Assembly: GCA_024998625.1 (NCBI GenBank)
Contig: JACOEL010000010.1
Coordinates: forward strand, 1 to 64,000
Length of the DNA: 64,000 nt
Direction of reading: 5' to 3'
Source of the DNA: Nitrospira sp.
GTDB lineage: Bacteria; Nitrospirota; Nitrospiria; Nitrospirales; Nitrospiraceae
The position numbers and the translations under genes are program-made. How positions within the stretch are numbered: position 1 is the stretch's first letter; the number at the start of each line of letters is the position of its first letter. This document shows positions 3,291 to 42,875 of the stretch, in pieces. The notes under the pieces are model-generated. The model was given only the letters and a program-made list of their open reading frames with translations. It was not told the origin of the DNA and made no database searches.

Positions 3291-3291
3291 G

Positions 3292-4694: not shown

Positions 4695-5261
4695 TCATGA
4701 TGGCGGGCGCGAGGGGTTCCAGGGATCCTGCACAATCGGGCGGTATTTGAGGTAAATCTGGGTATCACCAACCCCTGAGTCAGTCGTCCACGGTCCCCCT
4801 TTCCCCTGATTGAACTGCGCACTGGAATTGGCCCACCAGAATGAACCGGAAAGACCGACGTTGAGCTCCAAATGATTCGTCAGGCCATACGCCATCGTCA
4901 CAACCGGGGCGATTTGATACGAATGGACGGGTGACGACGTGCTGTTCGTCGTCAGATCATTGCCGAACTGCTTTTCACTGATTTGAGAGAAGATGAATGG
5001 ATGAACCGTAAACTGCCCTTGCGGATGGACATCGACACCACTGATGAAAATCGGCCCGTTCGAAAGCGGGTTCCAGCTTTGGCGGTAATTCTGAATTTCT
5101 TGATCGGTCGGAACCCAATCGAGAGCAAGGGCCTTGGCTGGTACTGATACCGCCAACCCAAGTTTGATCCAGAGTAAGCAGGCTACGCGACCTATTATCC
5201 TGGACCGGTTGAACGTCTTTCCTCGCGGCTGCTCCTGAAGCACAAACGAGTGTCTTGCCAT
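4695..5261 (-). pseudogene. Truncated outer-membrane protein (transporter-like beta-barrel)
   Basis: ATG 5261 follows a strong GGAGGAG ribosome site. An N-terminal signal peptide (hydrophobic LLWIKLGLAV, AKA-LA cleavage region, near residues 28-47) leads into a beta-barrel-like sequence with a NHLELNVGLSG strand and the repeat-like GDTQIYLKYRP. Barrel proteins with this start normally run to more than 280 residues. Here homology ends near 4720 and the last residues look foreign, so the 3' end was lost in the rearrangement that left the IS nest. The call is by general features only. A Crp-like palindrome lies about 100 bp upstream. Confidence 0.6.
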
Positions 5262-5362
5262 TCACTCCTCCAGTAAATCGTAGAGATATCTGCATGAGTC
5301 CATGTATGAAACGACCAACGGCTGAACGCCGCTGTAACTACCAGGTCACATCGAGAGGAGAC

Positions 5363-5378
5363 TGTAAGGCTGCTTACA
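5363..5378. promoter_or_regulatory. Crp/Fnr-like palindrome
   Basis: TGTAAG-GCTG-CTTACA is a perfect inverted repeat. It lies 102 bp upstream of the truncated outer-membrane gene (start 5261) and just behind the PiT gene. It is one of ten related sites in the window. Confidence 0.6.
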
Positions 5379-5381
5379 CAA

Positions 5382-6506: not shown

Positions 6507-6515
6507 GGATTCGTC

Positions 6516-7571
6516 CTATCCTCTCGATGCTGTTCCAGCGACCGCCCCGCCACAGGAAGAACCCGCGCCTGCCGTGCAGCCGTAGCAATGGTTGCGTGTG
6601 ACAATCTGGCGTTGATTCAGTTTCACTGGATCAAAGTCACGAATATGGGAGGGCAGGCCGAGATCTATCGGCAGTTCGAGCATCTGATTGAAGTCGCAGT
6701 CATAAAGCGTACCCTCCCACCCGATGGAAATCATCGACCGACACATCACGCCGGTGGCCGCTGCAGGGTTGAAGGCGTTGGCCAACCGCTCCATATACTG
6801 CTCGTAGTTGCCGCTCTCCACGAGAAACTCGAGATATCGGCTCACTGGCATGTTGGTGATCGTATAGAGATGGGTGAACTCGATGCCATGGCGAACCCGA
6901 AGTTCTTTCCGAAACTGCGCTTCGATGGCCTCTTGCTTGGGAGGGAGAAAGGCGCCGACCGGATTGTGCACGAGATTCAAGAGCAGGCCGCTCTCGGGGC
7001 GGCCGTAGCCCAGCCCATTCAACAGGCGCAGTGCCTCGATCGACTTCTCGAAAATGCCGTTGCCCCGCTGCGCGTCGGTCTGGCTGGCACGGTAGGAAGG
7101 CAGTGAGGCAATAATTTCAACTCGATGCATCGCCAGAAACTCGGCCAAGTCTGCCTGTGAAGGGATCAGGAGCACGGACAAATTACAGCGATCCATCACA
7201 TGTCGTCCGAGTCCGCGAGCTTGTTCGACCAACCATCGGAAATTGGGATTCAGTTCCGGTGCGCCCCCCGTGAGATCGACCGTGGGAATGTCGGTTGTGG
7301 CGAGCGCCTGCATGCACAGCGCTGCCGTGTCTCGCGACATGCGTTCGGTCCGATCCGGGCCTGCGTCTACATGACAGTGCTTGCAGGTCTGGTTGCAGAG
7401 TTTCCCCACGTTGATCTGAAACACCGTCATCCCGGTCGCTCGAAGCGGGAAGAGACCGGCTTGATCGAGCCGGGTCTTAAATGACGAATAGCCGTGCGTG
7501 TCGGCGAGCAGCTTGAGCTGTTCAGATGCGGAGGCCAGCGGATGCTGTCCCCCCAGCAGGGTCAGCGGCAT
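6516..7571 (-). CDS. arsS: Arsenosugar biosynthesis radical SAM protein ArsS
   Basis: This 351-residue radical SAM enzyme carries the cluster motif CNQTCKHC (cysteines 59, 63, 66), the ArsS start region LRATGMTVFQINVGKLCNQ and a cysteine-rich C-terminal domain (CYGC...SCGG) of the DUF3641 type. ArsS enzymes act after ArsM and build arsenosugar precursors from dimethylated arsenic. ATG 7571 is chosen because GAGG lies 8 bp upstream; GTG 7589 is possible. It stands between arsR and the PiT gene in a minus-strand operon. Confidence 0.9.
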   Translation of the reverse strand: MPLTLLGGQHPLASASEQLKLLADTHGYSSFKTRLDQAGLFPLRATGMTVFQINVGKLCNQTCKHCHVDAGPDRTERMSRDTAALCMQALATTDIPTVDLTGGAPELNPNFRWLVEQARGLGRHVMDRCNLSVLLIPSQADLAEFLAMHRVEIIASLPSYRASQTDAQRGNGIFEKSIEALRLLNGLGYGRPESGLLLNLVHNPVGAFLPPKQEAIEAQFRKELRVRHGIEFTHLYTITNMPVSRYLEFLVESGNYEQYMERLANAFNPAAATGVMCRSMISIGWEGTLYDCDFNQMLELPIDLGLPSHIRDFDPVKLNQRQIVTRNHCYGCTAGAGSSCGGAVAGTASRG

Positions 7572-7619
7572 GTCGGGGTCCTCACACACACAACAGTCGA
7601 TCTCACGAGCCCAGCCACC

Positions 7620-7976
7620 TCAGCGTGCATGTGTCACCGCGGTCAAAACCGTTTCAGGGAATCGCACCTCACAACACCCAAAATTCAGGGCCTGCCCTTG
7701 CCGATTCGCTAACGCCCGTTTGACGGTCGGAGCAATGCGATAGCAGACTTGCTTGCCCTCCCGGAGTCCTTCGACTAACCCGGCATCGCGAAGAATGCGA
7801 AGATGATGGGAGATGTGCGGCTGCGGGCAGCGTAATTCCCGCGCAAGCTCCATCACGCATTTCTCTTCGACCAGCAGGGACTCCAGAAGACGCAGTCGGG
7901 TCTTATCCGCCAGCGCTTTCAGCACCGTGGCACATTGGCCCGTGGTCAGGACATCGCCTATCGAGGCACGCTTCAT
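7620..7976 (-). CDS. arsR: ArsR/SmtB-family metalloid-responsive repressor
   Basis: This 118-residue winged-helix repressor has the recognition helix region CPQPHISHHLRILRDAGLV (near 50-68) and the wing GKQVCYRI. Cysteines 15, 40, 50, 78, 101 and 102 could bind As(III). The classic ELCVCDL motif is changed to EEKCVMEL, so the sensing site probably uses a different cysteine set, perhaps including the C-terminal GCC. The start ATG overlaps the arsM stop by one base. It probably represses this operon and is released by arsenite. Confidence 0.9.
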   Translation of the reverse strand: MKRASIGDVLTTGQCATVLKALADKTRLRLLESLLVEEKCVMELARELRCPQPHISHHLRILRDAGLVEGLREGKQVCYRIAPTVKRALANRQGQALNFGCCEVRFPETVLTAVTHAR

Positions 7977-9163
7977 CAACAACAGGCTCCATCAGGGGAG
8001 CAACTCACGGCTTCACCGCTGACCATCTGGCCTGCGCGATTGATCATCGCAAAATGAGGCGCGTAGCCGTCAGTTTCTAATACGCCACGCGTCTTGGAGC
8101 AGATCTCCAATGGCTCACCCCGGCGGTAGACATGATGGTCATCGTCGTGCGCTTCCAGGAAGGGTCCGGCCAGCAGCGCAAAATCACCTTTCCACACACA
8201 GGGTGTTTGTTCAGGAAGCACCGCCACCCATCTCGGATCTGTCTGTTCGAGCGTCACCGGGTCTTGTGACAAGATAAACAGCAGTGCAAACGGCGGCTGG
8301 CTCAGCACGAGAGCTGAGTCCGGTGTGAGTGTTTGAGGAGCTCCGCGTCGGTAGCTTGTGCCCCGTTCATCTACCACGCGGCTGAAGGGGCCGCGGAGCG
8401 TGGCATAGCGTGGGCTTAATGCCGGTGCATTGGCCGGGAGTTTGTAGCCGGTCAACGTCACCGAGAAGAAGTGAATACCCTCGATCCGCTGCCAGGGGGA
8501 CGACTTGATCAGATGGATGCCGATAAACCCCGCCTCCGTCATGCCAGCCATATAGTCGGTGAGTGTGAGGGCGCCAGACAGGCAATCGCCCCATTTCTCC
8601 GCATCATGAACCAGATACTGAGGTACGGGCTGATCCGCGACGATGTCCGAAATAGTAAACCGTCCGCCCGGCTTAGAAACGCGGAACATTTCACGGAAGA
8701 CCTTGCGCTTGTCCGGGGCCAAGTTGATCACGCAGTTGGAGATGATCAAATCAACCGTGCCCTCTTCTACCGGCATGGAATCGGCCATGCCTTTGCGAAA
8801 CTCGACATTGGAAGAGGGGTAGCCGAGATTGCCGGCCACGATCACGGCGTTCCTGCGCGCGATCTCCAACATCGTATCGGTCATGTCGATGCCGATCACG
8901 CGGCCCGTCGGGCTGACAAGGCGCGACGCCTCGAAGCAATCGATCCCGCCTCCAGATCCGATGTCCAGGACGGTTTCGCCGGCGCTCACGGTTTTCAGCC
9001 CTGCGGGCGTGCCGCAGCCATAGGAAATTTTGAGGACTTCTTCGGGAATGAAGGTCTTGAGGTGGCTCATGTCATAGCTGGTCGGACAACACATGTGTTC
9101 ACCCGAGCTGGCCGCCCGGGCGTATCGATCGCTGACGGCCTGAGTAATGTTCTCTCCTGGCAT
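7976..9163 (-). CDS. arsM: Arsenite S-adenosylmethionine methyltransferase ArsM
   Basis: This 395-residue protein begins with a class I methyltransferase domain: motif I VLDIGSGGGID at 65-75, and the conserved ArsM cysteines at 50 (SYGCG), 144 (SNCVINL) and 194 (GDCLSG), plus C25-C26. The roughly 120-residue C-terminal extension, ending DGACC, is the domain seen in long ArsM forms. It methylates trivalent arsenic in the cytoplasm and supplies ArsS. It is first in the operon arsM-arsR-arsS-PiT. GGGGAG precedes ATG 9163. Confidence 0.9.
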   Translation of the reverse strand: MPGENITQAVSDRYARAASSGEHMCCPTSYDMSHLKTFIPEEVLKISYGCGTPAGLKTVSAGETVLDIGSGGGIDCFEASRLVSPTGRVIGIDMTDTMLEIARRNAVIVAGNLGYPSSNVEFRKGMADSMPVEEGTVDLIISNCVINLAPDKRKVFREMFRVSKPGGRFTISDIVADQPVPQYLVHDAEKWGDCLSGALTLTDYMAGMTEAGFIGIHLIKSSPWQRIEGIHFFSVTLTGYKLPANAPALSPRYATLRGPFSRVVDERGTSYRRGAPQTLTPDSALVLSQPPFALLFILSQDPVTLEQTDPRWVAVLPEQTPCVWKGDFALLAGPFLEAHDDDHHVYRRGEPLEICSKTRGVLETDGYAPHFAMINRAGQMVSGEAVSCSPDGACC

Positions 9164-9296
9164 GGCTCCCCCGCTAAGTCATGAACATATGAAGAGACGT
9201 CTATGTATGAAACTGACCGAGTTGCCTTCAATCTCCAGCCGGGCACCAAGATGAATGCGTCAGAGGGGAAGGATACAGCGAGGAGGACGAAGGTTC

Positions 9297-9312
9297 TGTA
9301 AGCTGGCTTACA
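9297..9312. promoter_or_regulatory. Crp/Fnr-like palindrome
   Basis: TGTAAG-CTGG-CTTACA is a perfect inverted repeat between the divergent arsM (start 9163) and merR-type (start 9468) genes. It is one of ten related sites. Confidence 0.65.
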
Positions 9313-9418
9313 TTGAGTCGTACCCTGTAAGTGAGAGCATCGCCGCGCGAGGAATCCGTCACCAGCACAGAGTACTTCTGACAGGGCGGAGCATGGATCA
9401 GGTAGATTCCTCGTCCCC

Positions 9419-9450
9419 TTGACTCGGTACCATAGTATCAGGTGTAGCCT
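9419..9450 (+). promoter_or_regulatory. MerR-type promoter/operator with 20-bp spacer
   Basis: -35 TTGACT (9419-9424) and -10 TAGCCT (9445-9450) are separated by 20 bp, the overlong spacing that MerR activators correct. The spacer holds the imperfect dyad CGGTAC-CATA-GTATCAG. It is 18 bp upstream of the merR-type gene, so the regulator probably controls its own operon. Confidence 0.65.
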
Positions 9451-9467
9451 CTTCCCACGGAGCGACT

Positions 9468-9911
9468 ATGACATCCCAACGTACGATTGGCTGGCTCGCA
9501 AAGTCGGCTGGCGTTCATGTCCAAACAGTTCGGTACTACGAGCGGCAACAGCTCCTCTCGCCTGTCGGCCGTCGGCCGTCCGGATATCGTGTCTATGACC
9601 ACGAGGCAGTGGCACGACTCCGATTCATCAGAAACGCGAAGGCACTGGGATTCACGCTTCGAGAGATCGGTGAATTACTCAGCCTCCGAGTGAATGGCCG
9701 GGCGCGTTGTGGCGACGTGCAGCGGAAGGCAGAAGCTAAATTGCATGGCGTTGAAGCGAAGCTGACAGACCTCCAGGCTTTGGCCCGCGCGCTGCGCGGA
9801 TTGATCCGCATGTGTCAGGCTGGTCAGCCCATCGATCGTTGTCAGATTCTGCGCCAGATGGAAAGAGAACAACCCGCCTCACAACAATCACAGAAACGGA
9901 GGACATCGTGA
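9468..9911 (+). CDS. MerR-family heavy-metal regulator with Hg-type cysteine triad
   Basis: This 147-residue regulator has the MerR N-terminal winged helix (IGWLAKSAGVHVQTVRYYER). A long dimerisation helix follows. Cysteines 81, 116 and 125 match the spacing of the mercury-binding cysteines 82, 117 and 126 of MerR. The short loop MCQAGQPIDRC differs from standard MerR. It may sense Hg(II), another soft metal or a reactive electrophile. It overlaps the next gene by GTGA, so it is the first gene of its own operon. No merT, merP or merA with HMA domain is adjacent. Confidence 0.88.
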   Translation: MTSQRTIGWLAKSAGVHVQTVRYYERQQLLSPVGRRPSGYRVYDHEAVARLRFIRNAKALGFTLREIGELLSLRVNGRARCGDVQRKAEAKLHGVEAKLTDLQALARALRGLIRMCQAGQPIDRCQILRQMEREQPASQQSQKRRTS

Positions 9912-10303
9912 CACGTCCGAACGACACACGGTTTACGGAATTGCGTCGCCTCAGTCCGCAAGTAACAGGCGGGTTGCTTCGCATGCGCCAGGCAGCCTAT
10001 CGCGATGGGGCGGTTCCCGCCAAACATAAGCTCCTCACCGCGATGGCGATCTCCATCGCGATCCGATGCGAACCCTGCATTCGCGCCTATGTCCGGATGG
10101 CGCACGAGAAAGGCAGCACACAAGAAGAACTGATCGAATTCCTTGAGGTGGCCATGACCATGCAAGGTTGTCCCGGCGAGGAATGGGCGCTGAAGGCCTA
10201 TGCTGCCTATAAGGAATCTATCGGTCCTGAGACGACTTCGGATGCCGCAGGTTGCTGCGATCACCAAACGCCAAGCGATACCGATGAAGAGGAGGCACCA
10301 TGA
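9908..10303 (+). CDS. Carboxymuconolactone decarboxylase (AhpD-like) family protein
   Basis: This 131-residue all-helical CMD-fold protein has the redox motif CEPC at 54-57 followed by the helix IRAYVRMAHEKG. CMD/AhpD proteins with CxxC are usually peroxidases or disulfide reductants. The C-terminal tail (AGCCDHQTPSDTDEEE) is acidic and has two extra cysteines, which might bind metal. GTG 9908 overlaps the merR-type stop and the end overlaps the next ATG (ATGA), so it is translationally coupled on both sides. Confidence 0.85.
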   Translation: MTRPNDTRFTELRRLSPQVTGGLLRMRQAAYRDGAVPAKHKLLTAMAISIAIRCEPCIRAYVRMAHEKGSTQEELIEFLEVAMTMQGCPGEEWALKAYAAYKESIGPETTSDAAGCCDHQTPSDTDEEEAP

Positions 10304-10836
10304 AACGACGATTCGCTCCCCTGCTCATGACCTTCACAGCCCTCGTCTTGAGCACGGGACTTTGGATTCCTGCAGCATCCGCGGCCAACATCTTGATCCA
10401 TATGAAAACATCGCTTGCCGTGGACGATGCACAAATCTGCGCGGTACCAAACGTTGCCTGGGCAGCCGTGAAGGCTGGGCATAAGGTGACGATCCTGGTG
10501 GATGCGAGCGCCGTCACGTCGGTGACGAAAGGCTTCGGGTGGTTCAGGATGCTGATCGGGGCTGAATCCACCGCGCTGGATCGAGCTGGCTTGCCGGAGC
10601 GAGAACGACAGAGCCTCTCCGAACAGATGGACGTCCCGCTGGAGCAAGTCCCGCACAATTACGGCGAGTACTTCGATTTGCTCAAGAACAAGCTGGGCGT
10701 TGAAATCTACGGGAATCAGACCATGATGCTGCTCTACAAGATCGATCCGGCGCGGGTGGCTGCCTCAATCACGCCGATTCCGTTGCCCAGGATGGTCCAG
10801 TTGTTCGAGGCGGCGGAGCGGATTGTGGTCTATTGA
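10300..10836 (+). CDS. Exported DsrE-fold protein
   Basis: This 178-residue protein has an N-terminal signal peptide (about 28 residues, cleavage near ASA-AN) and a DsrE/DsrF-like Rossmann domain: ILIHMKTSLAVDD at the first strand and then KAGHKVTILVDASAV. The conserved sulfur-carrier cysteine of DsrE is not obvious; one cysteine is present near residue 47. It would act in the periplasm. It is coupled by ATGA to the CMD gene and belongs to the MerR-controlled operon. Confidence 0.8.
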   Translation: MKRRFAPLLMTFTALVLSTGLWIPAASAANILIHMKTSLAVDDAQICAVPNVAWAAVKAGHKVTILVDASAVTSVTKGFGWFRMLIGAESTALDRAGLPERERQSLSEQMDVPLEQVPHNYGEYFDLLKNKLGVEIYGNQTMMLLYKIDPARVAASITPIPLPRMVQLFEAAERIVVY

Positions 10837-10905
10837 CCGGTAGCCTGGCATGTCGGGTGGGCAGTGGGCTGTACTCGGGTCAGCCGGGTGGATCATCAGT
10901 AGCGA

Positions 10906-11283
10906 TTAGATGCGCGTCCGCTTGCTGAAGTAGGTCCACACGTCGATCGTATCGAGCACCAGGGAGAGGGCCATGGAGACCGACAAGACCTGCAAGTAGT
11001 GTTTAAACGACGCCTCAGCGGCTGGAATCTGAATCATCAGATATGCCAGCAACGGGACCCATGGAAGGTGGCCAAGCCCAAGGATCTTGGCGAATCCAAA
11101 TCGCGCATAGAGTCCCATCATGAGCATCGCGCTCGCGAGAAAGTTCATGAGGATGAGCCTGGCGAGGGCTTCCTGCCAGAAGGCGAGACTCGCCATGTTG
11201 ACGAGCATGAGAAACAGCACCCACAACGATACCCAGAGGGGCTGCTCCGTCAATTCGATGAAAAATCGTAAGGGGCTTCTCAT
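10906..11283 (-). CDS. Four-helix inner-membrane protein, family with 21452-21850
   Basis: This 125-residue protein has four hydrophobic segments and the signature SAMLMMGLYARFGFAKILGL, followed by GH and PLL. The protein at 21452-21850 shares this signature and overall layout, so the two are paralogues. No known function is recognised. It lies next to DsrE genes on both sides, as does its paralogue. ATG 11283 has no strong ribosome site. Confidence 0.75.
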   Translation of the reverse strand: MRSPLRFFIELTEQPLWVSLWVLFLMLVNMASLAFWQEALARLILMNFLASAMLMMGLYARFGFAKILGLGHLPWVPLLAYLMIQIPAAEASFKHYLQVLSVSMALSLVLDTIDVWTYFSKRTRI

Positions 11284-11393
11284 GGACGGGATTTTTTCGA
11301 CGTGAGCGATCAGCCCTGCGCTGAGGGTCAGTGAAAGGGACGGGCACCCGACCGTGGTGGTAGCGCCGGCCGGATGCCCAAAGGTTCACGGCG

Positions 11394-11750
11394 TTAGAAT
11401 GTGATGACCTGATACCCCTGGGACACGAGCTTCTTGAAGCTCGGATGACCGTCGTATTCTCCCGTCAGCTTCACGCCGCAGGCCACGACCTGATCCTTCA
11501 CCCCAAACGCGCCCGCGCAAAAGTCGCACGCCCCGCTGATTCGATCCTTCACCGCCACGTAGAGCCCGTGAGCCATGTGATCGGGCTTCTCCAGCTCCGG
11601 GATCCACTTGGGCCCGGCGCCGTCGAAAATGAGTTGGACGTCGTCATGGGCGTCTTTGAACTCTTTGACGGCTTCCATTGCGTTCACCACACGCCCCAAC
11701 CCTTCATGCGTGTCTGTGTCGGCTAATACCACGATTGCAACCTTGGGCAT
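11394..11750 (-). CDS. Cytoplasmic DsrE-family protein
   Basis: This 118-residue DsrE/DsrF-type protein has no signal peptide. The first strand is VAIVVLADTDTHEGLGRV, and a CDFCAGAFG motif near residues 75-83 and ACGV near 91 carry cysteines where sulfur carriers have theirs. It is a paralogue of 20350-20724, which has CACAEVFG and SCGV at the same places. AAGGAG precedes ATG 11750. A degenerate Crp-like site lies about 120 bp upstream. Confidence 0.8.
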   Translation of the reverse strand: MPKVAIVVLADTDTHEGLGRVVNAMEAVKEFKDAHDDVQLIFDGAGPKWIPELEKPDHMAHGLYVAVKDRISGACDFCAGAFGVKDQVVACGVKLTGEYDGHPSFKKLVSQGYQVITF

Positions 11751-11872
11751 ACGGCACTCCTTTCATAACGAACAGGTGAAGAGTGAGAGATTTTCTCCGT
11801 CTCATCGGCGGACCGGTCGCGGCGCGCTGCCGAAACAGTCTACGCACTCTACTGCGCGGCACACGGAAGTTC

Positions 11873-11888
11873 TGTGGGCTGGATTACA
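11873..11888. promoter_or_regulatory. Degenerate Crp/Fnr-like palindrome
   Basis: TGTGGG-CTGG-ATTACA lies 123 bp upstream of the DsrE gene starting at 11750. It is the weakest of the ten sites. Confidence 0.4.
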
Positions 11889-11926
11889 AGTGCACGAAGA
11901 AAGTCGCGACGACAGAATGAAGCACG

Positions 11927-11942
11927 TGTGAACCGCCTTACA
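11927..11942. promoter_or_regulatory. Crp/Fnr-like palindrome
   Basis: TGTGAA-CCGC-CTTACA lies 73 bp upstream of the zinc-ribbon gene at 12015. Confidence 0.55.
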
Positions 11943-12014
11943 GATCCTCAGTGAGATACTCGATAGGATGCGCGCATGGTAGCGAACTATTTCCCATCCA
12001 CAAGGAGGTGAACC

Positions 12015-22781: not shown

Positions 22782-23128
22782 ACCGCTACGGTCGAGGGAT
22801 TTCGTGGACACTCCCCTTCCGTGTTCCAGGCAAGGCAGGACGGACCTGATTGCCTGTCGGGAATCACCCGCGGCTGGGCCGGCTCGCCGTTCCCAGCCGC
22901 TCGTGACGGCATCGGCCACGCGCCATTCATTCTTCCAACTGTAAGCTGCCTCACAGCGACGTAAGCGCGAGCCCGGTACCATGTGAGTGTCTCATGATGA
23001 GACCCCGGGCACTTCGCGCCCTCTGTGAAACAGGGGATTACCGACGATCATGTCGTGAGATCCTGAGTCGTTCGTCTGTGCTCGGAAGGCTGTGTCCCAA
23101 CTTACAACCGTTCCCTAAGGAGGTTCCA
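22782..23128. other. Intergenic region upstream of the bufferin cluster
   Basis: About 350 bp hold no convincing gene. The region contains the Crp-like site at 22940-22955 and a strong ribosome site (TAAGGAGGTT) in front of bufA. No clear sigma-70 or ECF promoter was recognised. Confidence 0.5.
22940..22955. promoter_or_regulatory. Crp/Fnr-like palindrome
   Basis: TGTAAG-CTGC-CTCACA lies 174 bp upstream of bufA, with no gene between them. Confidence 0.6.
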
Positions 23129-23464
23129 ATGAACGCCAATACGAAGAAACATGCCGTCATCCATTCCGCCTTGTTGGTTGCGTTGAGTTTTGCCGGCGCC
23201 CAGGCGGCGAGCGCCGCACCGAAGATGGCTGAATTGCCGGCGGGATGGGAGGCCTGCGGAGGCGTGGCCAAGGCGGGGATGAACGATTGCGCGGTGAAGA
23301 CCAGCCTCCATTCCTGCGTGGGTATGTCGAAGACCGACAATGAGGCCGATTCGTATGTGTTTCTGCCGAAAGGCTTGTGCGCCAAAGTCGCCAAAGGAAC
23401 GGTTCTGCCTATCACGAAGGACGACCTGGCGAAGATGAAAGAAATGATGATGAAGAAAATGTAG
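23129..23464 (+). CDS. bufA: Bufferin precursor, BufA1 type (DUF2282)
   Basis: This 111-residue protein has a signal peptide (about 29 residues, ASA-AP) and a core with four cysteines: C43 (WEACGG), C54 (MNDC), C63 (HSC) and C84 (KGLC). GVAKAGMNDC and VFLPKGLC match the bufferin pattern. Bufferins are ribosomal peptides whose cysteines are oxidised by a DUF692 enzyme. The mature product binds copper in the periplasm. The tail is rich in Lys and Met (KMKEMMMKKM). It is first in bufA-bufB-bufC-doxX. Confidence 0.85.
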   Translation: MNANTKKHAVIHSALLVALSFAGAQAASAAPKMAELPAGWEACGGVAKAGMNDCAVKTSLHSCVGMSKTDNEADSYVFLPKGLCAKVAKGTVLPITKDDLAKMKEMMMKKM

Positions 23465-23475
23465 GACGGCCAGCC

Positions 23476-24321
23476 ATGTCTGTTCAACATTCCACCCCGA
23501 TCCCGGCACTGGCCGGGATCGGATTGCGATCCCATCATTTTCGCGAAATCCTCGACGCGCCGCCTTCGGTCGCCTGGATGGAGACCCATCCGGAGAATTA
23601 CTTCGGCGAGGGCGGCGCCACGCTCCGTATCCTAGAGCGGATCAGGGGCCGGTACCCCTTGAGTTTTCACGGGGTCGGATTGTCGCTCGGCTCTACCGAT
23701 CCACTTGATCGCGTTCATCTCCGGAAACTGAAAACGCTGGTCGATCGTTTCGACCCGGCATTGGTGTCGGAACATCTTTCGTGGAGTTCCGTCGGCGGTC
23801 GTTTCCTCAATGAGCTGCTCCCGTTGCCCTCGACCGAGGAAAGCCTCAAACATGTCTGTTCACGGATCGACGAAATCCAGACGGTTTTGCAACGGCCCCT
23901 CCTTGTCGAAAATATCACCCGGTATCTGACGTGGCGCGAGTCCACGATCCCGGAAGGGGCGTTTATGGCCAAGGTCGCGCGAAGCACAGGGTGCGGAATT
24001 CTGCTCGATCTCAACAACGTCTATGTCAATGCCGTCAACTTTCACCTAGACCCGTTTGATTTTCTGGATGCGATTCCGGTTGAAGCAGTGCAGGAAATCC
24101 ACCTGGCAGGCTTCCATCGTTTCGGGAGCATGCTGATCGATACCCATGGCGAGGCGATCTGTCCGGAAGTCTGGGGCCTGTACCAATGGGCAGTTCACCA
24201 TATTGGGCCACGCCCGACGCTCATTGAATGGGATACTAATATGCCGCCGCTGTCGGTATTGGTGGAGCAGGCCGCGCAGGCTGATGCCATTCTTGGAGGC
24301 TGCCATGCCGAAGTTGTGTGA
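23476..24321 (+). CDS. bufB: DUF692 multinuclear iron enzyme, bufferin-modifying BufB
   Basis: This 281-residue TIM-barrel protein has the DUF692/MNIO metal-ligand motifs: METHPENYF (near 34-42), FHGVGLSLG, SEHLSW, VENITRY, LLDLNNVYVNA, EIHLAGFH and DTHG. Such enzymes use two or three iron ions and oxygen to convert cysteines of the precursor peptide to heterocycles. The gene follows bufA by 11 bp and overlaps bufC by 17 bp. Confidence 0.92.
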   Translation: MSVQHSTPIPALAGIGLRSHHFREILDAPPSVAWMETHPENYFGEGGATLRILERIRGRYPLSFHGVGLSLGSTDPLDRVHLRKLKTLVDRFDPALVSEHLSWSSVGGRFLNELLPLPSTEESLKHVCSRIDEIQTVLQRPLLVENITRYLTWRESTIPEGAFMAKVARSTGCGILLDLNNVYVNAVNFHLDPFDFLDAIPVEAVQEIHLAGFHRFGSMLIDTHGEAICPEVWGLYQWAVHHIGPRPTLIEWDTNMPPLSVLVEQAAQADAILGGCHAEVV

Positions 24322-25081
24322 CATCCAACAGGCCTTCGCCGAGGCCATTGTCGAAGGGACATGCCAGACGGCCACGGCAGCGATGGCAGCGGATGGATCG
24401 GCGCTGCGAAGCCTGGCGCTCTACCGCCGATTGATTCGCAACAACTTTGTGCAGGTGCTGCGGATTACCTATCCCGCGTTGCATCGGCTGGTCGACGACA
24501 ACTACTTCGGTGTATTGGCGCGCGGGTACATCAAGAAATATCCCTCGACCAGCGGCGATCTGTTTCTGTATGGACGCCATCTCCCGGCCTGGCTGCAACG
24601 CATCGAGGCGTCCCCGCTCCTTGTTGAACTGGCCAGGCTCGAATGGGCCTGTCACGAGGTCTATCAGGCGGCGGATTCGGTGCCGTTTCCGCCGGACCGG
24701 TTTCAGGCCATGGCCTCGGCGGATCCCTCGCGCGTTACCATCCAATTCCATCAGACGGTGCGGTTTCTGGCCTGTTCTCTCCCAGTCCATCGCGTCTGGC
24801 AGGCGCTCCAGCCGGATGCCACGCCGGACGTGGCCATCAGCCTGCCACTCCCGGAGGAACAGACCGGCCTCATCGTGGTCCGAAGCTGCGGCGCGGTGCA
24901 GGTCATACCGCTGGCCTGGCTGGAGTACCGCTTGCTGGAGGCCCTCTCACAGGGAGCCAGCGTGGCGTCGATTGAGCAACAGGTGCGAGAAGCTGAAGCC
25001 GGTGTCGATTTCACCCGGTTGATGACGACCCTGCTGCAGGCGCAGGTCATAGCCGGAATCTCCCTGAAGGAGGGCGTATGA
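24305..25081 (+). CDS. bufC: DUF2063 partner protein BufC
   Basis: This 258-residue protein has the DUF2063 N-terminal domain: LCDIQQAFAEAIVEG, then LALYRRLIRNNFVQVLRITYPALHRLV, with the FxxxARGYI region. In MNIO clusters this protein binds the precursor and presents it to the DUF692 enzyme. It overlaps bufB and is coupled to the DoxX gene by ATGA. Confidence 0.9.
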   Translation: MPKLCDIQQAFAEAIVEGTCQTATAAMAADGSALRSLALYRRLIRNNFVQVLRITYPALHRLVDDNYFGVLARGYIKKYPSTSGDLFLYGRHLPAWLQRIEASPLLVELARLEWACHEVYQAADSVPFPPDRFQAMASADPSRVTIQFHQTVRFLACSLPVHRVWQALQPDATPDVAISLPLPEEQTGLIVVRSCGAVQVIPLAWLEYRLLEALSQGASVASIEQQVREAEAGVDFTRLMTTLLQAQVIAGISLKEGV

Positions 25082-25611
25082 CGCAGCCAGCTGGTTTGCT
25101 GACACGTGCCGTTAATCGCGCCGTTCCTGTGTATCTCTGGCTGATCCACGGGCTGGAAGCGCTGACTCCCTTGTTCGATCTCTCCGTGCGGCTGTACCTC
25201 GCGAACATCTTTTGGAAAGGCGGGATGGTGAAACTGTCCAACTGGATGTCCACGGTGATGCTGTTCACCATGGTCTACGATGTGCCGGTTCTGCCGCCGG
25301 AGATCGCGGCCTATCTGTCGACGGCCGTTGAACTCGGCGGCTCATTTCTGCTGGCGATCGGTCTGGCCGGTCGTTGGGCGGCCCTCTCGCTCTTCGGCCT
25401 CAATATCGTTGCCGTGCTCTCCTACGGACAACTGTCCGAAGCCGCGACCCAAGAGGCATTTTATTGGGGTATCCTTTTCCTGTATTTTGTGTTGCACGGA
25501 CCGGGGTTGATCTCGATGGACGCCTTGTTGGATCGCGTCTATCGGCGAAGGCAGGCCATGAGTCGTGCCTGTGAGCCGGTCTACACACAGCCTGTCTCTC
25601 ACAGTGCCTGA
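25078..25611 (+). CDS. DoxX-family membrane protein of the bufferin operon
   Basis: This 177-residue protein has four hydrophobic helices and the DoxX signature RLYLANIFWKGGMVKLSNW (near 38-56). DoxX members often close bufABC operons. Their role is uncertain; electron transfer or help with export and oxidation has been discussed. ATGA overlap with bufC shows it belongs to the operon. Confidence 0.88.
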   Translation: MTQPAGLLTRAVNRAVPVYLWLIHGLEALTPLFDLSVRLYLANIFWKGGMVKLSNWMSTVMLFTMVYDVPVLPPEIAAYLSTAVELGGSFLLAIGLAGRWAALSLFGLNIVAVLSYGQLSEAATQEAFYWGILFLYFVLHGPGLISMDALLDRVYRRRQAMSRACEPVYTQPVSHSA

Positions 25612-28369: not shown

Positions 28370-29923
28370 CTACTTCCTCATCCATGAAAACCACTTACCC
28401 AAGATGTGCTGTTGGCCAGCGGTGAAGGTGGTTTTTCGCCACGCGTTGGCGACCTTCTTCACGACTTCACCTTGTGTCGGATACGGGTGGATGGTGGATG
28501 CCAACGTCTTCAGGCCCAGCCCCGCTTTCATGGCAAGCGTGAACTCATTGATCAAATCGCCGGCATGGGCCGCGACGATCGTGGCCCCCCAAATGCGATC
28601 CGTCCCTGCCTCCACATGGACCTTTGCAAAGCCCTCTGTGTCTCCGTCGAGCACCGCCCGGTCCACCTCGTCTAAGCGATGGGTGAATGTCTCTACCTTG
28701 TGCCCCTTCTCCTTCGCCTCAGCTTCGTACAGACCGACGTGGGCGATCTCCGGATCGGTGTAGGTCGCCCAGGGAATGACCAGCGAACTGACCCGCGCTG
28801 TGCCGAGCCCGAAGGGATGGGGAAAGAGCGCGTTCTGAATGACGATCTGGGCCATGGCGTCCGCCGCATGCGTGAACTTGTAGCGGGAGCAAATGTCGCC
28901 GGCCGCATAGATATTCGGATTGGTCGTGCGGAGGTGGTCGTCGACCGTGACGCCCGCCTTGTCATAGCCGACACCGGCGGCTTCCAAGCCAAGCCCGTCC
29001 ACGTTCGGCGTACGCCCGGCGCCCACGAGAATCTCGTCGACCGTAATATCGTACGCCCGGCCATGCGAGCCACCCGTCAGCCGCTTGCCGGTCTCCGTCT
29101 TCTGGATCGTCAACTCCTTGCCGCAACAGAATAAGGTCACACCGTCGCGAACCAGGGCTTTCTCAACAATGTCCGCCGCATCGCGATCTTCGTTCGGCAT
29201 GATCCCGTGCAACGCCTCAATCAGATACACCTGACTGCCGAACCGGGCGAAGGCTTGCGCCAGCTCACAGCCGATGGGTCCCGCGCCGATGATCGCCAGT
29301 CTCGCCGGCAACTCGGTCAGCGAAAAGACGGTTTCGTTGGTCAGATAGCCAGCTTCCTGTAACCCTGAGATGGGTGGAGCAGAGGCCCGCGCGCCGGTGC
29401 AGATGGCGGCTTTGGCAAAGTCTAACGTCGCGCTGCCGACTTGAACGGTCTGCGCGCTCGTGAATTGGGCCTGGCCCAGGTACACATCGACACCCAGGCC
29501 GGTAAACCGCTGGGCCGAATCTGTCCGGCCGAGTTGGGCGCGCAATGTCCGCATGCGCGTCATGACGGCGGGGAAATCCTCCTTCGCCTCGCCGGAGAAG
29601 CGGAGGCCGAACTCTTCACCTCGCCGCACATCCGCCCAGGCCCGCGAGGCCCGGATCAAGGCTTTGGACGGTACGCAGCCGACATTCAAGCAATCCCCGC
29701 CCATCAGGTGCCGTTCGATCAGCGCGACTTTCGCACCCAACCCGGCCGCGATGGCCGCTGTCACCAGCCCGGCCGCTCCGCCTCCAATGACCACCAGGTT
29801 ATATTGACCGGTCGGTGTCGGGTTCACCCAATGAGGCGGATGGACGTAGTTGATCAAGCGTTGATTTTGTTCATCGTCGGGTAGCATCACGTTGGAAGGA
29901 ACAGTCTTTTCAGGCGCGCTCAT
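28370..29923 (-). CDS. Flavin disulfide oxidoreductase (mercuric-reductase-like)
   Basis: This 517-residue FAD/NAD(P)H enzyme has GGGAAGLVTAAIAAGLGAKV at the FAD site, the redox-active pair GGDCLNVGCVPSK, the second Rossmann motif GAGPIGCELAQAFA and a C-terminal dimerisation domain (HPYPTQGEVVKK). It lacks the N-terminal HMA domain and the C-terminal vicinal cysteines of true MerA (it ends WFSWMRK), so mercury reduction is not supported. ATG 29923 has AAAGGA upstream. It follows a TVP38-type gene, a common pairing. Confidence 0.88.
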   Translation of the reverse strand: MSAPEKTVPSNVMLPDDEQNQRLINYVHPPHWVNPTPTGQYNLVVIGGGAAGLVTAAIAAGLGAKVALIERHLMGGDCLNVGCVPSKALIRASRAWADVRRGEEFGLRFSGEAKEDFPAVMTRMRTLRAQLGRTDSAQRFTGLGVDVYLGQAQFTSAQTVQVGSATLDFAKAAICTGARASAPPISGLQEAGYLTNETVFSLTELPARLAIIGAGPIGCELAQAFARFGSQVYLIEALHGIMPNEDRDAADIVEKALVRDGVTLFCCGKELTIQKTETGKRLTGGSHGRAYDITVDEILVGAGRTPNVDGLGLEAAGVGYDKAGVTVDDHLRTTNPNIYAAGDICSRYKFTHAADAMAQIVIQNALFPHPFGLGTARVSSLVIPWATYTDPEIAHVGLYEAEAKEKGHKVETFTHRLDEVDRAVLDGDTEGFAKVHVEAGTDRIWGATIVAAHAGDLINEFTLAMKAGLGLKTLASTIHPYPTQGEVVKKVANAWRKTTFTAGQQHILGKWFSWMRK

Positions 29924-29966
29924 GGGCGGGGTCCTTTCGGGTTGATGAGGGGGCATCGAGTCTCGT

Positions 29967-30785
29967 TCATGGGTGAGAGGGAGCCTCTGTACGATTCACC
30001 GGTTCAACCGGCTTGCCGGCGAATCGCCGGTACAGCATCTGCACCAGGGCGAGTAGTCCCAGCAAGGTGAACGCCAGGATCACGTGGGGTGAGGCAATTT
30101 CCTTGAGTGAATTGATCGTGCCCAACTGACGCCCGGCGTAGGCATAGACGAAGCTGCCGGGCACAATGCCCAGGGCCGTCGCGAGTACATAGGTACCGAG
30201 GCGAACCCGGGTCAGGCCCGACACCAAGTTGACCAGGAAGAACGGAAATAGGGGAACGAGCCGGAGCGTCACGAGGTAGCTGAACGCATTTTTTGCAAAC
30301 CCCTCTTGAATCGGACCCAGCTTCTGGCCGAACCTCTGCTCGACCCACCCGCGTAAGAGATAGCGGGCCGTCAAGAACGCGAGCGTGGCCCCGCTGGTCG
30401 CCCCGAGATTGACGAAGACGGTTCCCAACAGACTCCCGAACAGAAAGCCTCCCGTGAGGGTCAGAATCGTGGCGCCGGGAAGAGACAAACCGGTCACCAG
30501 GCTGTAGGTGGCGATGAAGCTCGCCACGGCGGCGGCGCGATGTTCGTCAGTGAAGGCCAAGAGCCGGTCTCGGTTCGTCTTCACCGTCTCCAGTGTGAGA
30601 TACGCATCCAGGTCAAACCAGAAGAATGCGCCGATCGCGAGTCCGATCGCTGCGGCGAAGATAATTTTTCCGAAGCGTGCCCCATTCGCTGATGTGGATG
30701 GCAACGAGGCCGGATGAGATGGTGATGTCGGCTGTGCCGTCTCGCACGTGCACGAATGTTCTCCTGCACACGATATGTCCTTCAT
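29967..30785 (-). CDS. TVP38/TMEM64 (DedA superfamily) membrane protein
   Basis: This 272-residue protein has a cysteine-rich cytoplasmic start (DISCAGEHSCTCE) and about six membrane segments. The VTT domain has GATILTLTGGFLFGSLLGT and a FLTARYLLRGWVE region, then RLVPLFPFFLVNLVSG. Relatives are lipid or anion handling proteins. ATG 30785 has GAAGGGAG upstream. It is first in a two-gene unit with the flavin reductase, and a Crp-like site lies 118 bp before its start. Confidence 0.85.
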   Translation of the reverse strand: MKDISCAGEHSCTCETAQPTSPSHPASLPSTSANGARFGKIIFAAAIGLAIGAFFWFDLDAYLTLETVKTNRDRLLAFTDEHRAAAVASFIATYSLVTGLSLPGATILTLTGGFLFGSLLGTVFVNLGATSGATLAFLTARYLLRGWVEQRFGQKLGPIQEGFAKNAFSYLVTLRLVPLFPFFLVNLVSGLTRVRLGTYVLATALGIVPGSFVYAYAGRQLGTINSLKEIASPHVILAFTLLGLLALVQMLYRRFAGKPVEPVNRTEAPSHP

Positions 30786-30902
30786 GAGGCTCCCTTCTAT
30801 TGACGGACTGAAGCGTGGCGCCGGTTCTGTTTTAGCTCGGTTTTCATGAGGGATAGGTGACTTCGTCATGCCTCCACAGTACCGGACTTCGGGATGAGAT
30901 TC

Positions 30903-32651: not shown

Positions 32652-33353
32652 ATGAACCAACCAGACACCGCTCCCAACAAACTTTGGTTCCTCAAGCACA
32701 TTCGACTTTTCGACGGGATTTCTCCTTCCGAAATGCAGGAAATGGAGAAGATTACCCGCATGGAAGAGGTTAAGAAGCGGCAGCCCTTGTACCTCCCTGG
32801 CGATCCGAGCAGCAATGTGTATCTCCTCAAAAAGGGGCGCGTCAAAATCGCCAATACGGCCTCAAGCGGGAAGGAAGTCACCTTCGACATCTTGGATCCA
32901 GGAGAAATCTTTGGTGAGCTTGATGTATTGGAAGATGCCCCCCGCTCGACTTCGGCGGAAACTCTCGATGACGCGCTCATCTGCGTCATTCCACGAAAAG
33001 ATTTCGATCAATACTTAGCCATGCACCCGACCGTGATGTTCAAGCTGACTAAGCTCATCGGTCTGCGGCTCAAAAAAATCCAGAGCCGCGTCGAGGATCT
33101 GGTTTTCCGCGATGTGCCGGCCCGCCTCGCCCATCTACTTGTAGAGCTGAGCAAAACCGAGGGGGTTGCTGAGAAGCAAGGTATTCGACTCAAGGTGAAG
33201 TTGACCCACCAGGAAATGGCCAACCTCATCGGTTGTAGCCGGGAGACGGTGAGTAGCACGCTTGGACAGTTCCGCGATGAGGGGCTTCTTCAACTCGATG
33301 GCCGGACCATGACGATTCTGGACCTCAAAGGGTTGTCCAGACTGCTTGGTTGA
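32652..33353 (+). CDS. Crp/Fnr-family transcriptional regulator
   Basis: This 233-residue protein has a cyclic-nucleotide-binding-fold domain (about 15-130; GRVKIANTASSGKEV and the loop GEIFGELDVLEDAPRS), a long dimer helix, and a C-terminal winged helix with recognition helix GCSRETVSSTLGQF at about 194-207. The R-E pair is the one CRP uses to read TGTGA. It has no Fnr-type N-terminal cysteines, so it is not an iron-sulfur oxygen sensor; the effector is unknown. Ten TGTRAG-N4-CTYACA-like sites, including one at its own promoter, may be its targets. Confidence 0.9.
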   Translation: MNQPDTAPNKLWFLKHIRLFDGISPSEMQEMEKITRMEEVKKRQPLYLPGDPSSNVYLLKKGRVKIANTASSGKEVTFDILDPGEIFGELDVLEDAPRSTSAETLDDALICVIPRKDFDQYLAMHPTVMFKLTKLIGLRLKKIQSRVEDLVFRDVPARLAHLLVELSKTEGVAEKQGIRLKVKLTHQEMANLIGCSRETVSSTLGQFRDEGLLQLDGRTMTILDLKGLSRLLG

Positions 33354-39042: not shown

Positions 39043-39556
39043 CCTAGAAAGTCAGTTTGCTGGATAAGCATTCACCTTGCCAGAGGCTGCATTGTTGGGT
39101 GTAGTTATGTGAGGTGTAATCAGCGGCATAAATCATCGTTACACGGCAGGATCACTTCAGCGTGCTACGGAAGCTATGTAGTAGTAAAAGCCCTACTGTC
39201 TATATAGACGGTCTGTTTGCTAAGTGCTGGAAAAACCTACGAGTTGATGCAAGGCAAGAAATATATAAGTCATTGGAATTATTACATTTAAGGTGCCTTG
39301 CCAAGGCGAGGGTCGCGGGTTCAAATCCCGTTTCCCGCTCCAAATCACACTCCTCCTCGGCACGCTTAGTACCCATATCGTTCTGAACAACCACGGTTCG
39401 TCCCTTTGCCCGGTGAAATCCTTCGTCTGTAGGTTTGTTCGGCCCAACAGGTCCTGTCTTAGCGCGTGGGCTTTCCAGTCGGGCACGCCGCTTTCTTTCG
39501 CTCCTGGTTATCCTCTGTTGTCTCAGTTGATGTCTGACGCCTGGCCTCAGTCGGTC
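39043..39556. other. Gene-free border region
   Basis: About 500 bp without a convincing gene. The left half (39050-39290) is clearly more AT-rich than its surroundings. It holds the tRNA-Gly fragment at 39292-39342. Frames across the tRNA fragment encode peptides such as SNPVSRSKS that are typical translation artefacts of tRNA sequence. Confidence 0.6.
39292..39342 (+). repeat. 3' half of tRNA-Gly(GCC), probable attachment-site scar
   Basis: The sequence holds an anticodon arm with loop TTGCCAA (anticodon GCC), a T arm GCGGG-TTCAAAT-CCCGT and the 3' acceptor TTCCCGC-T-CCA. The matching 5' acceptor GCGGGAA and the D arm are absent; the upstream DNA is AT-rich and unrelated. A tRNA 3' fragment like this is what site-specific integration into a tRNA gene leaves at one end of an island. 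Confidence 0.75.
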
Positions 39557-41761
39557 CTACTGTTGTGAGCGGGTGGTCGCTCGTTCCAGTGCGTGGAGCC
39601 TGCGCAGCAGGTTTTCGGCGGTGCTATGGTCTTCGGGCGTGAGGGAAGCGTGACCGAACCGGACTCGAGTATAGAGTTGTGTAAGGGCATCAGCGAAGGG
39701 CCAGGCTTCAGCCCATTCTTCTTGAACATGGCGAAGCAACTCCATGGGTGTCGTGCTCGCTGACTTCACGATGCCGCGTTGCGCAAGGCAGTGCAACATA
39801 TTGGTGTAGAGGGTGATGACGGTGCGTTGATGGGCTGAAAGCGCATCCGGGGGTGATGTTGCGCTTCTGGACGACCGTAGCAGCAGCCGACCCGCATACG
39901 TCGAGCCGATGGCCAGAATGACCAAGAGTACAATTTCCGGAATACCGGTCGATGTGAACGAGGACAAGAAGCGCCGGAACATCGCGGAGCTCCGAGCGGA
40001 GAGGGAATTGAGAGATTCGGAGAGTTTTGCCCGAACGGCTTCCCCGCTCTCTCGAATGCCTTGCACGACAGTGAGTTGATCGTTCGCGCTGAAGTGGACG
40101 AAGAGGCGATCCCATTGAAGCCGGACCGAATCCGTCACACGCTCGGCGGATTGCCACCAGGTTTGCCCGGTGTTCTCCGGAGCAGGAGGCGTTGGATCCA
40201 TCGTAATCCATCCTGACTGTGGGAAATAAACCTCCACCCAGGCATGCGCATCCCGTTGTCGAACCGTATAGTACCCGCCGAACTCATTCCATTCAGTTGC
40301 AAGGAATCCCGTGACCAGTCGGGCCGGGATCCCGGTGGCGCGGAGCAGCACCACCATCGCGGTGGCGTAATGTTCGCAATATCCTGTTTTCCGGGTCAGG
40401 AGAAAGTCTTCAAGCGGGTGAGCCGATTGGAGGGAGGGCACGTCCAGGTTGTAGCGATAGTTGGTCAGCAAGTGTGTGTGGATCAGGGCGACGGCCTGGG
40501 AGACACTGGTGGCCGGTTGAGTGACCCGATGGGCGAGATCAACGATCTGCGGACTGACGGAGGGAATTTGCAGATACTGCTGAAGGATAAAGTCAGGGTA
40601 CAGCAGCGCGGCGGCGGCCTGCTCCGCCGGATTGAGGTTGGTCGGTACGGAGTAAACCGTGTACTGGATGCGGGTGTGAGAAGGGAAAGCCAGGTGCAGA
40701 GATCCCGTCAGATCGGATTGGAGCGAGTGGAAATCACCTCTGACGGCGAAGGCAAGGGGGGCGCCGAACAGCACGGCCGTATCGAGCGGTTCCAGCAGAA
40801 TATCTTGTCGGAGTGCGCGTGCCTGGGGTGGCAGTTTGGCGCCCGGTGTTCGGAACGTGAAGGTGCCTTGGGGAAGTTCCGTGAGCATACGGCGGTGCAG
40901 CAGGTTGTTGCTCCAGGATTTTCCGTCATACCGATTGTAGGCGACGCCACGGAGATACAGCGGCCCCCGTGCCGAGGGAGTTCCGGGACTGTCCGGCAGC
41001 TCCACGCGCATGACGATGCTGGGATCCTGCTTCACCGGGGCCATGACGCCCAGATCGACCTGCTCTGAAAACCCCGTCGTTCGCAGGCTTTCCCCATGGG
41101 AGTGTTGCAACAGGCCAACCCCTACCCGTGGGATCGAAAAGAAAAAGAGCAACGTGAGGCCGAATGCGCCGGCTGCCATCGCATTGGTCGTCCAGAAAAA
41201 GCGGGCCGTCATGTGCGGCAGTGTCGAGTCGAGCGGTGCCGCGTGGCTGCCGAGCATCTGATGACCGGTACTCTCTTCGTGTTCCTGCAGCAGGTGATAC
41301 AGGAGCAGCGTCCAGACTCCGGCCACCAGATAGACAAAGAAGAAGGGGGCGTACCAGATTTGCGTGGTCAGCGCGGCGGAGGCCAGAAGCGTGATGAGGC
41401 TAATGGCATAGAGGTGAAGAAAATCCCGCCGCTGGTCGAGGTTCGAGAGTTTATTCACCAGGAGCAGCACGAGGAAATGGATTCCGGCCGGGAGAAGTTC
41501 CTGCGAGACGAGTAACAGATCGATCCAGAAGCCCGCGAAGGCGAGGAGGAGGAAAATATTCCATGTCAGAGCAGAGAGGCGGATCTGTTGCAAGACTCCG
41601 GACAGGCCTGAGGGGAGATTCACTCTCAGGAGTGCCACGGCGAAGGCTGCTCCGGACAAGACGAGAAGCCAGAATGGCAAGGCAATCGCGAGCGTCAGGC
41701 TCGCGAAGCCGGTTGCCGCCAGCAGAATTGAGCTAAGCCGGAAGGCTCGATCCAGCGTCAT
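39557..41761 (-). CDS. Transglutaminase-like membrane protein (TgpA type)
   Basis: This 734-residue protein has about six N-terminal membrane helices (1-210), then a periplasmic transglutaminase-like domain with catalytic C (KTGYCEHYATAMVVLLRA), H (RDAHAWVEVYF) and D (MDPTP). A further membrane helix near 600 and a cytoplasmic helical tail (DUF4129-like) follow. ATG 41761 is chosen; it overlaps the DUF58 gene by 29 bp. It is last in the MoxR-DUF58-transglutaminase cluster, which is widely conserved but poorly understood. Confidence 0.9.
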   Translation of the reverse strand: MTLDRAFRLSSILLAATGFASLTLAIALPFWLLVLSGAAFAVALLRVNLPSGLSGVLQQIRLSALTWNIFLLLAFAGFWIDLLLVSQELLPAGIHFLVLLLVNKLSNLDQRRDFLHLYAISLITLLASAALTTQIWYAPFFFVYLVAGVWTLLLYHLLQEHEESTGHQMLGSHAAPLDSTLPHMTARFFWTTNAMAAGAFGLTLLFFFSIPRVGVGLLQHSHGESLRTTGFSEQVDLGVMAPVKQDPSIVMRVELPDSPGTPSARGPLYLRGVAYNRYDGKSWSNNLLHRRMLTELPQGTFTFRTPGAKLPPQARALRQDILLEPLDTAVLFGAPLAFAVRGDFHSLQSDLTGSLHLAFPSHTRIQYTVYSVPTNLNPAEQAAAALLYPDFILQQYLQIPSVSPQIVDLAHRVTQPATSVSQAVALIHTHLLTNYRYNLDVPSLQSAHPLEDFLLTRKTGYCEHYATAMVVLLRATGIPARLVTGFLATEWNEFGGYYTVRQRDAHAWVEVYFPQSGWITMDPTPPAPENTGQTWWQSAERVTDSVRLQWDRLFVHFSANDQLTVVQGIRESGEAVRAKLSESLNSLSARSSAMFRRFLSSFTSTGIPEIVLLVILAIGSTYAGRLLLRSSRSATSPPDALSAHQRTVITLYTNMLHCLAQRGIVKSASTTPMELLRHVQEEWAEAWPFADALTQLYTRVRFGHASLTPEDHSTAENLLRRLHALERATTRSQQ

Positions 41762-42875
41762 TGAAAAGCTCTCTGTGTGACTGAGGAGACACGATGTAAT
41801 CGACCGGTGGAAATTCCTCATTTCGAGCGGGATCGGTCCAGGGTGAGAGCAGGATCGTCGGGCCTTCATGCACTTCTGCAAGCGCCCGGGCCATGGAATG
41901 TCGGATCGCAGCTCCCGTTGCCATCGGGCGCCGCTCGCAGAGCGCCAGGGCGTGAAATAGATGCAGCGCCTGGTCGGTGCCGCAGGCGAGCAGGTCCTGT
42001 TGATCGCCCAGTAGCAACCGAACCTGGTATCCGTCTTTCAAAAAGTGATCAATGAGGGAGGCGCCGATTGAGAGCGCCCGCTCGAAGCTGTGCTCTGCCT
42101 CGTCCGGCGCAACGGTCGAGATCGCCAACGTGATCGATCGTCTCTCTTCCGCCTCGGTTTCCTTGAGCATTAACTTCGAGGTGCGGGCTGTGGTCATCCA
42201 ATGAATGGCGCGGGAATCGTCCCCCGGCCTGAATTCGCGCAAGTTGTACAGTGAGTTACCCGGCCCGCAGTGAGCCCGCGCGAAATCCTGCCCCAGGGCA
42301 TTCAGTTCCAGCAGTTGCAGTGGCGGAAGGGGAATGATTTCCGGACAGACGATCAGCGTGGCTTCGAGTGGATGGAAGGATTTCTTGTAAAACAAACCGA
42401 AAGGAAACGGGGTCACGATACGAATTCCGTCGAGCCGGTAGGGTCCACGCTGCCGAACCAGTAGCGGGTACGAGCAGAGGGTGGAGGTTGCAGGCGCGAG
42501 GTGCGAGACATGAATCCCCCGGTCGAGATCTTTTCCGGCAACGACATCGAGGAGGCGTAACGAGACACTCGGGATACGTGATTTGTGATTGACGACCCGG
42601 AGCGTTGCGGTGGCCATCTGATTGACGAAGAGGTAGTCCGGGAGGTGCCGATGGAGATCCAGCCGTCGCACACATTGTTCCGACAGCAACCCGGACAGCA
42701 CGACCAGGCTCAGCATCATGGCCAGCAGGAGGTAGAACAGATTATTGCCAGTGTTGACGGCGGCGATCCCGACGGCCAGGGTCAGCAACAGGAAGCGGAC
42801 GCCTTCCGTTGTCACCCGGATGGTGCGGTCCCGGAACAGCCGGCGGAATAGAGCCTGGAGATTGTTGGTTGCCAC
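41733..42875 (-). CDS. DUF58 (von Willebrand-type) membrane-anchored protein
   Basis: This 380-residue protein has two N-terminal membrane helices and the DUF58 motif FRPGDDSRAIHWMTTARTSK. The usual core aspartate-serine region follows. It typically acts with a MoxR ATPase, whose gene lies 75 bp upstream, as a chaperone-like pair. The stop is overlapped by the transglutaminase gene. Confidence 0.92.
   Translation of the reverse strand: MATNNLQALFRRLFRDRTIRVTTEGVRFLLLTLAVGIAAVNTGNNLFYLLLAMMLSLVVLSGLLSEQCVRRLDLHRHLPDYLFVNQMATATLRVVNHKSRIPSVSLRLLDVVAGKDLDRGIHVSHLAPATSTLCSYPLLVRQRGPYRLDGIRIVTPFPFGLFYKKSFHPLEATLIVCPEIIPLPPLQLLELNALGQDFARAHCGPGNSLYNLREFRPGDDSRAIHWMTTARTSKLMLKETEAEERRSITLAISTVAPDEAEHSFERALSIGASLIDHFLKDGYQVRLLLGDQQDLLACGTDQALHLFHALALCERRPMATGAAIRHSMARALAEVHEGPTILLSPWTDPARNEEFPPVDYIVSPQSHRELFNDAGSSLPA

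Follow-up and report, generated by a model that had tools for sequence, protein, structure and literature searches.

The 64-kb window analysed here, the first 64 kb of contig C3 of a Nitrospira genome (G000), carries at positions 39295 to 39343 (plus strand) a displaced 3' part of a tRNA-Gly(GCC) gene. This fragment is almost certainly the attR of a genomic island that entered through site-specific recombination, the most likely catalyst being a tyrosine integrase that recombines at the anticodon loop of the tRNA gene. As such it is an ordinary but well-supported end of a tRNA-integrated genomic island of a known kind. The right-hand part of the inserted island occupies positions 1 to 39294; its left end is cut by the contig start, and it is absent between the same flanks in G012, the nearest to G000 among the 28 Nitrospira relatives compared. 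The intact tRNA gene is on contig C4, which is unlinked to C3 in the assembly, so that neither the complete island nor its left side can be seen. With 39.3 kb in the window and 0.9 kb on C4, the island measures at least 40.2 kb in the assembly.

The attR core matches positions 943 to 991 of C4 (minus strand) in 49 of 49 bases. This exact shared stretch, GCCTTGCCAAGGCGAGGGTCGCGGGTTCAAATCCCGTTTCCCGCTCCA plus an A, takes in three bases from the 5' strand of the anticodon stem, then the loop TTGCCAA, everything 3' of the loop as far as CCA, and one additional base. The first-pass annotation of this DNA had described a 3' half kept from the anticodon arm to CCA, with the 5' half missing, and the identity to the intact gene bears this out; the fragment had been placed at 39292 to 39342, and its presence holds, although the left edge was off by three bases. 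ARAGORN called no tRNA gene in the window, which identifies 39295 to 39343 as a fragment, and an Rfam scan of the window gave nothing above threshold. No further copy was found in the window with up to three mismatches (0 expected by chance), and the only full-identity match in the whole genome was the intact tRNA-Gly gene. Base composition does not mark the island, as G+C is 0.54 to 0.66 throughout the window; mean GC skew is about 0.02 to the left of the boundary at 39.3 kb and about 0.09 to the right.

The sole intact tRNA-Gly(GCC) gene of G000 lies at positions 943 to 1018 of C4 (minus strand, anticodon GCC). Its 3' side faces the end of C4, 942 bp away, and the start of an IS-like ORF (family judged by eye only) lies within these 942 bp. 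The first-pass annotation had proposed a search for such a gene; it exists, with the 49 bp shared at its 3' end, near a contig end and in the expected orientation. It had also proposed that the fragment was either attL or attR of an island of more than 39 kb; the island end is upheld, and because the intact tRNA lies on C4, the fragment is attR and not attL. A relative lacking the island, which it had suggested for comparison, is provided by G012, in which tRNA-Gly, 237 bp and the gene for a TgpA-type transglutaminase follow one another on one contig, with a DUF502-like gene on the other side of the tRNA, as in G000. The C4 flank and tRNA, joined to the window from 39344 onwards, aligned with G012 in one piece over 1300 bp (92% identity); the junction itself is free of gaps, and the larger indels are located 55 bp or more to its right. 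This unbroken alignment identifies the DNA to the left of the fragment as an insertion and the fragment as attR, and it looks just as expected from a precise insertion that duplicated the 3' part of the tRNA gene. Six other genomes share the uninterrupted site, the gaps in all seven being 113 to 290 bp. Three of the features by which Islander-type islands are recognized are present: an intact tRNA at one end, an identical fragment in direct orientation, and an uninterrupted site in relatives. Relatives with the same neighbours on both sides of the fragment, which would have spoken against an island, were not encountered; similarity of G001 (Candidatus Nitrospira defluvii, FP929003), G023 and G028 to the window begins exactly at the fragment and extends rightwards, and the DNA to the left of it is unrelated.

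In the sequence of events that we propose, a circular element would have brought its own copy of the 3' part of the tRNA gene, and a crossover in the anticodon loop, presumably catalysed by a tyrosine integrase, would have split the host gene. The island's 3' copy would then have made the tRNA gene whole again at the left end, the attL now found at 943 to 1018 of C4, while the host's own 3' part would have been displaced to the right end, at 39295 to 39343.

The right chromosomal flank begins with the TgpA-type transglutaminase gene (39557 to 41881, minus strand; Pfam TgpA_N and Transglut_core, and synteny), which adjoins tRNA-Gly in relatives with an empty site. The core-like genes that had been described to the right of the fragment were indeed seen (TgpA transglutaminase, MoxR, FtsX, PGI and YidC). 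Among the 20 genomes in which tRNA-Gly and TgpA are on a single contig, the gap between them is 113 to 290 bp in 7, 662 to 812 bp in 3 and 3.5 to 55 kb in 10. Displaced fragments are present in at least eight genomes, including G000; G028, and perhaps G026, carries more than one. The interval between tRNA-Gly(GCC) and TgpA is therefore an insertion hotspot in Nitrospira. No Nitrospira tRNA-Gly island was described in the literature searched, and as far as that search goes the hotspot is undescribed.

Contiguous complete elements at this site (in G001, G023, G028, G011 and G004) have the order tRNA, integrase (PF00589), cargo and 3' fragment. In all of them the two ends are identical from the anticodon loop as far as CCA, in keeping with Islander's anticodon-centred class (PMC4383910). 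Two integrase types, about 33% identical, adjoin the tRNA, one as in G001 and the other as in G004, and G018 has a third relative. In G001, G023 and G028, the DNA left of the fragment is an element of 4.1 to 4.4 kb encoding a tyrosine integrase of 407 to 409 aa and a Rep_trans protein; this element has variable cargo and is complete in G001 (L078, 394 to 4844), G023 and G028. An integrase related to that of this small element lies beside the tRNA or a fragment in G011, G005 and G026, and besides L078, the loci with the element or a related integrase are L079, L080, L083, L085 and L089. In G011 (L083, 290 to 4084) and G003 (L093, 220 to 4012), the interval contains ArsR-like, ACR3-like and PstS-like genes (identified by eye) and no integrase; perhaps these genes represent an older layer at the hotspot.

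Repeats lie near both ends of the island. The palindrome ACTGTCTATATAGACGGT (39195 to 39212), a putative arm-type site of the integrase, is located about 82 bp inside the island end as measured from the fragment, and on C4 a tandem repeat, CCATAGGCGGTTTATAGGCGGTCC (motif ATAGGCGGTTTATAGGCGGTC), follows 46 bp after the intact tRNA; the two have TATAGRCGGTC in common. With up to one mismatch, TATAGACGGTC occurs a single time in the 64 kb, and the probability in 200 bp is about 0.0026, for a motif chosen after the fact. In complete elements at tRNA-Gly, the tRNA is followed at about 45 bp by tandem repeats, and related motifs are located about 130 to 170 bp inside the fragment end; this layout resembles that of G000, whose motif is its own. 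From this layout, the repeats near both G000 ends may be taken as putative arm-type binding sites for an integrase. In the short-gap relatives G007, G016 and G027, too, the tRNA is followed by the ATAGGCGGT repeat, which is thus by itself a weak indication of an arm site and may in part be native sequence or an old scar. After tRNA-Gly at L034, L038, L033, L091 and L083 (about position 4560) there is also the tandem repeat CCATAGGCGGTTTATAGGCGGTC or a degenerate version of it; some of the relatives bearing it have a short gap between tRNA and TgpA and no integrase beside the tRNA, and a scar, native sequence or an integrase-less element are possible origins.

An integrase had been expected beside the tRNA; in G000 none was found, either in the window or in positions 1 to 942 of C4, where the IS-like ORF start is followed by the contig end. 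A tblastn search of the window and C4:1-942 with the G001 integrase gave no match, and these regions thus hold no recognisable decayed copy of that type. None of the 14 PF00589 matches across G000 is at the tRNA-Gly site; one at the end of contig C14 was dismissed as a mere remnant that has no fragment next to it. Positions 1 to 600 of the window were likewise considered as an integrase remnant, and only a short repeat shared with contig C5 was found. Near the contig start (118 to 270) there is an inverted pair of GGTTCTTATAYGGATC resembling a repeat at position 74560 of C5, possibly a small transposable element or an IS end. The integrase of the G000 copy may lie in the unassembled gap between C4 and C3 or may have been lost; as none stands beside the tRNA, present mobility is unproven. 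Among the carriers of ATAGGCGGT (G007, G016, G017, G027 and CMX, a MAG introduced below), no integrase is listed within a few kb of the tRNA. It is conceivable, though rather improbable, that the island of the window belongs to a Nitrospira element family that is marked by ATAGGCGGT repeats beside tRNA-Gly, has no att-side integrase of its own and is moved in trans by unrelated integrases visiting the same tRNA, as a cis-mobilisable cargo island common to distant lineages.

Accessory genes were found on the left side, as had been reported. IS21-type genes (1478 to 4750; Pfam IstB_IS21, rve and Mu-transpos_C_2) comprise IstB (1478 to 2242, minus strand) and transposase pieces at 2242 to 3408 (minus) and 3293 to 4750 (plus), and have a 91% copy elsewhere in G000. 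They are followed by cargo assigned through Pfam as a PHO4 phosphate transporter, a radical SAM/DUF3641 protein, an ArsR regulator, a methyltransferase and a MerR regulator (5382 to 9911). A bufferin-type cluster (22994 to 25611, plus strand) encodes a candidate small precursor, assigned by position, and, by Pfam, an MbnB/TglH/ChrH enzyme, DUF2063 and DoxX proteins. Further right are a pyridine-nucleotide-disulphide oxidoreductase and a VTT-domain protein (28370 to 30869, minus strand; Pfam) and a Crp-family regulator (32652 to 33353, plus strand; Pfam cNMP_binding and HTH_Crp_2). Neither conjugation genes (relaxase, type IV secretion) nor phage structural genes were recognised among the Pfam-scanned window proteins. 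Ten Crp-like sites had been said to stop at the fragment; with up to one mismatch to TGTGA-N6-TCACA there are seven, not ten, in the window, from 11927 to 39040, and none right of the fragment (1.5 expected; seven reached in 0 of 100 shuffles). All seven are on the island, which has its own Crp-family gene.

Blocks homologous to the island in the 28 relatives lie away from tRNA-Gly. A second copy of both ends was found by a pattern scan across 84,980 species genomes, in the MAG referred to as CMX. Its contig CAADGK010000007.1 (L199) matches window positions 28762 to 30800 at 88% identity, including the homologue of the oxidoreductase block, and carries the palindrome and the fragment; 39182 to 39358 match at 85%, including 110 bp left of the fragment, and the Crp-like site at 39025 is kept. 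The host flank beyond the fragment differs; it looks G008-like even though TgpA is 47% identical between G000 and CMX. The 48.9-kb contig CAADGK010000076.1 has at its start an intact tRNA-Gly and then an attL as on C4 (88% identity across 197 bp); after another 40 kb it matches window positions 5076 to 11970 at 83 to 89% identity in the same orientation, thereby joining a C4-type attL to cargo of the window within one contig. Cargo proteins of G000 and CMX are mostly 77 to 92% identical (90 to 92% for four of the five genes at 5382 to 9911, 89% for the Crp-family regulator), with two genes near attR at 56 to 59%. That the cargo is far more alike than the core TgpA protein supports horizontal transfer as the probable source of the shared cargo, although CMX, as a MAG, may be mixed. 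In the 20 kb beside the CMX attL, matches to G000 are confined to the attL arm, the att core and two short places on other contigs. The stretch of roughly 40 kb that separates attL from the shared cargo (L234 to L236) encodes an N6-methyltransferase, three recombinases, a DnaB-like protein, a patatin and a Schlafen/AlbA_2 protein, and next to attL are proteins of 924 and 434 aa without a known Pfam family. Three PF00589 proteins are present near this attL, the nearest at 9.8 to 14.3 kb from the tRNA.

Tandem duplication and decay of tRNA-Gly, without the action of a mobile element, could also leave a shortened tRNA close to a complete one. This is highly improbable, as the break at the anticodon arm is sharp, no 5' remnant is left and identity is 100%; moreover, the site in G012 holds one intact gene that leads straight into the same right flank, and other relatives carry differing DNA and integrases between tRNA and fragment. 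Equally hard to credit is a mis-join at a repeat, an assembly or binning artefact that might be suspected because C4 ends 942 bp beyond the tRNA and the window lies at the start of a contig: the fragment is 39 kb inside C3, the sequence on its right is orthologous to the empty site, and the 85% match over 39182 to 39358 comes from an unrelated assembly, CMX.

A more serious competitor, still unlikely in our estimation, is accretion at the hotspot, by which the fragment would be the attR of one element while the 39 kb to its left would comprise several elements or chromosomal DNA assembled through IS activity and homologous recombination; as the fragment would be attR under this reading too, our estimate refers to the composite origin. 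It would accord with the elements stacked at this site in G011, G004, G026 and G028, the IS21 genes at the left end of the window, the variable order and place of cargo blocks among relatives, and the missing integrase beside attL in G000. However, positions 1 to 39294 contain no second tRNA fragment, and CMX has an attL-type end followed by the block of 5 to 12 kb, and on another contig the block of 28.8 to 39.3 kb with attR, in the order and orientation of the window. The shared order and orientation of the two blocks favour the arrival of the 39 kb as one unit.

Reading the fragment as attR fixes one end of a large Nitrospira cargo island to the base. It also brings out, in this genus of nitrifiers, a tRNA-Gly(GCC)-TgpA hotspot that has served integrases of at least two kinds, and a clean case of cargo common to distant Nitrospira, with phosphate transport, arsenic/metal-type regulators and its own Crp-type regulator. 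In Islander, 3760 of 3919 islands have a 3' fragment and 2083 have an anticodon-centred site (PMC4383910). Its tRNA islands, like that of G000, have a regenerated tRNA at one end and a displaced 3' fragment at the other in the required orientation, but Islander demands an integrase gene between the ends, and none was found in the assembled part of the G000 copy. The N. defluvii element (FP929003, 296163 to 300644) has the same tRNA, side and right flank as G000 and a duplication of the same kind (46 bp), but it differs in its size of 4.1 to 4.4 kb, its arm-like repeat TGTGATAG, its cargo and an integrase type absent at the G000 site. The CMX island, while differing in the roughly 40 kb from attL to the shared cargo, with type I RM-like genes, three recombinases and a DnaB-like protein, has the same attL and attR ends as G000 and related cargo DNA (83 to 89% over 5076 to 11970 and 88% over 28762 to 30800).
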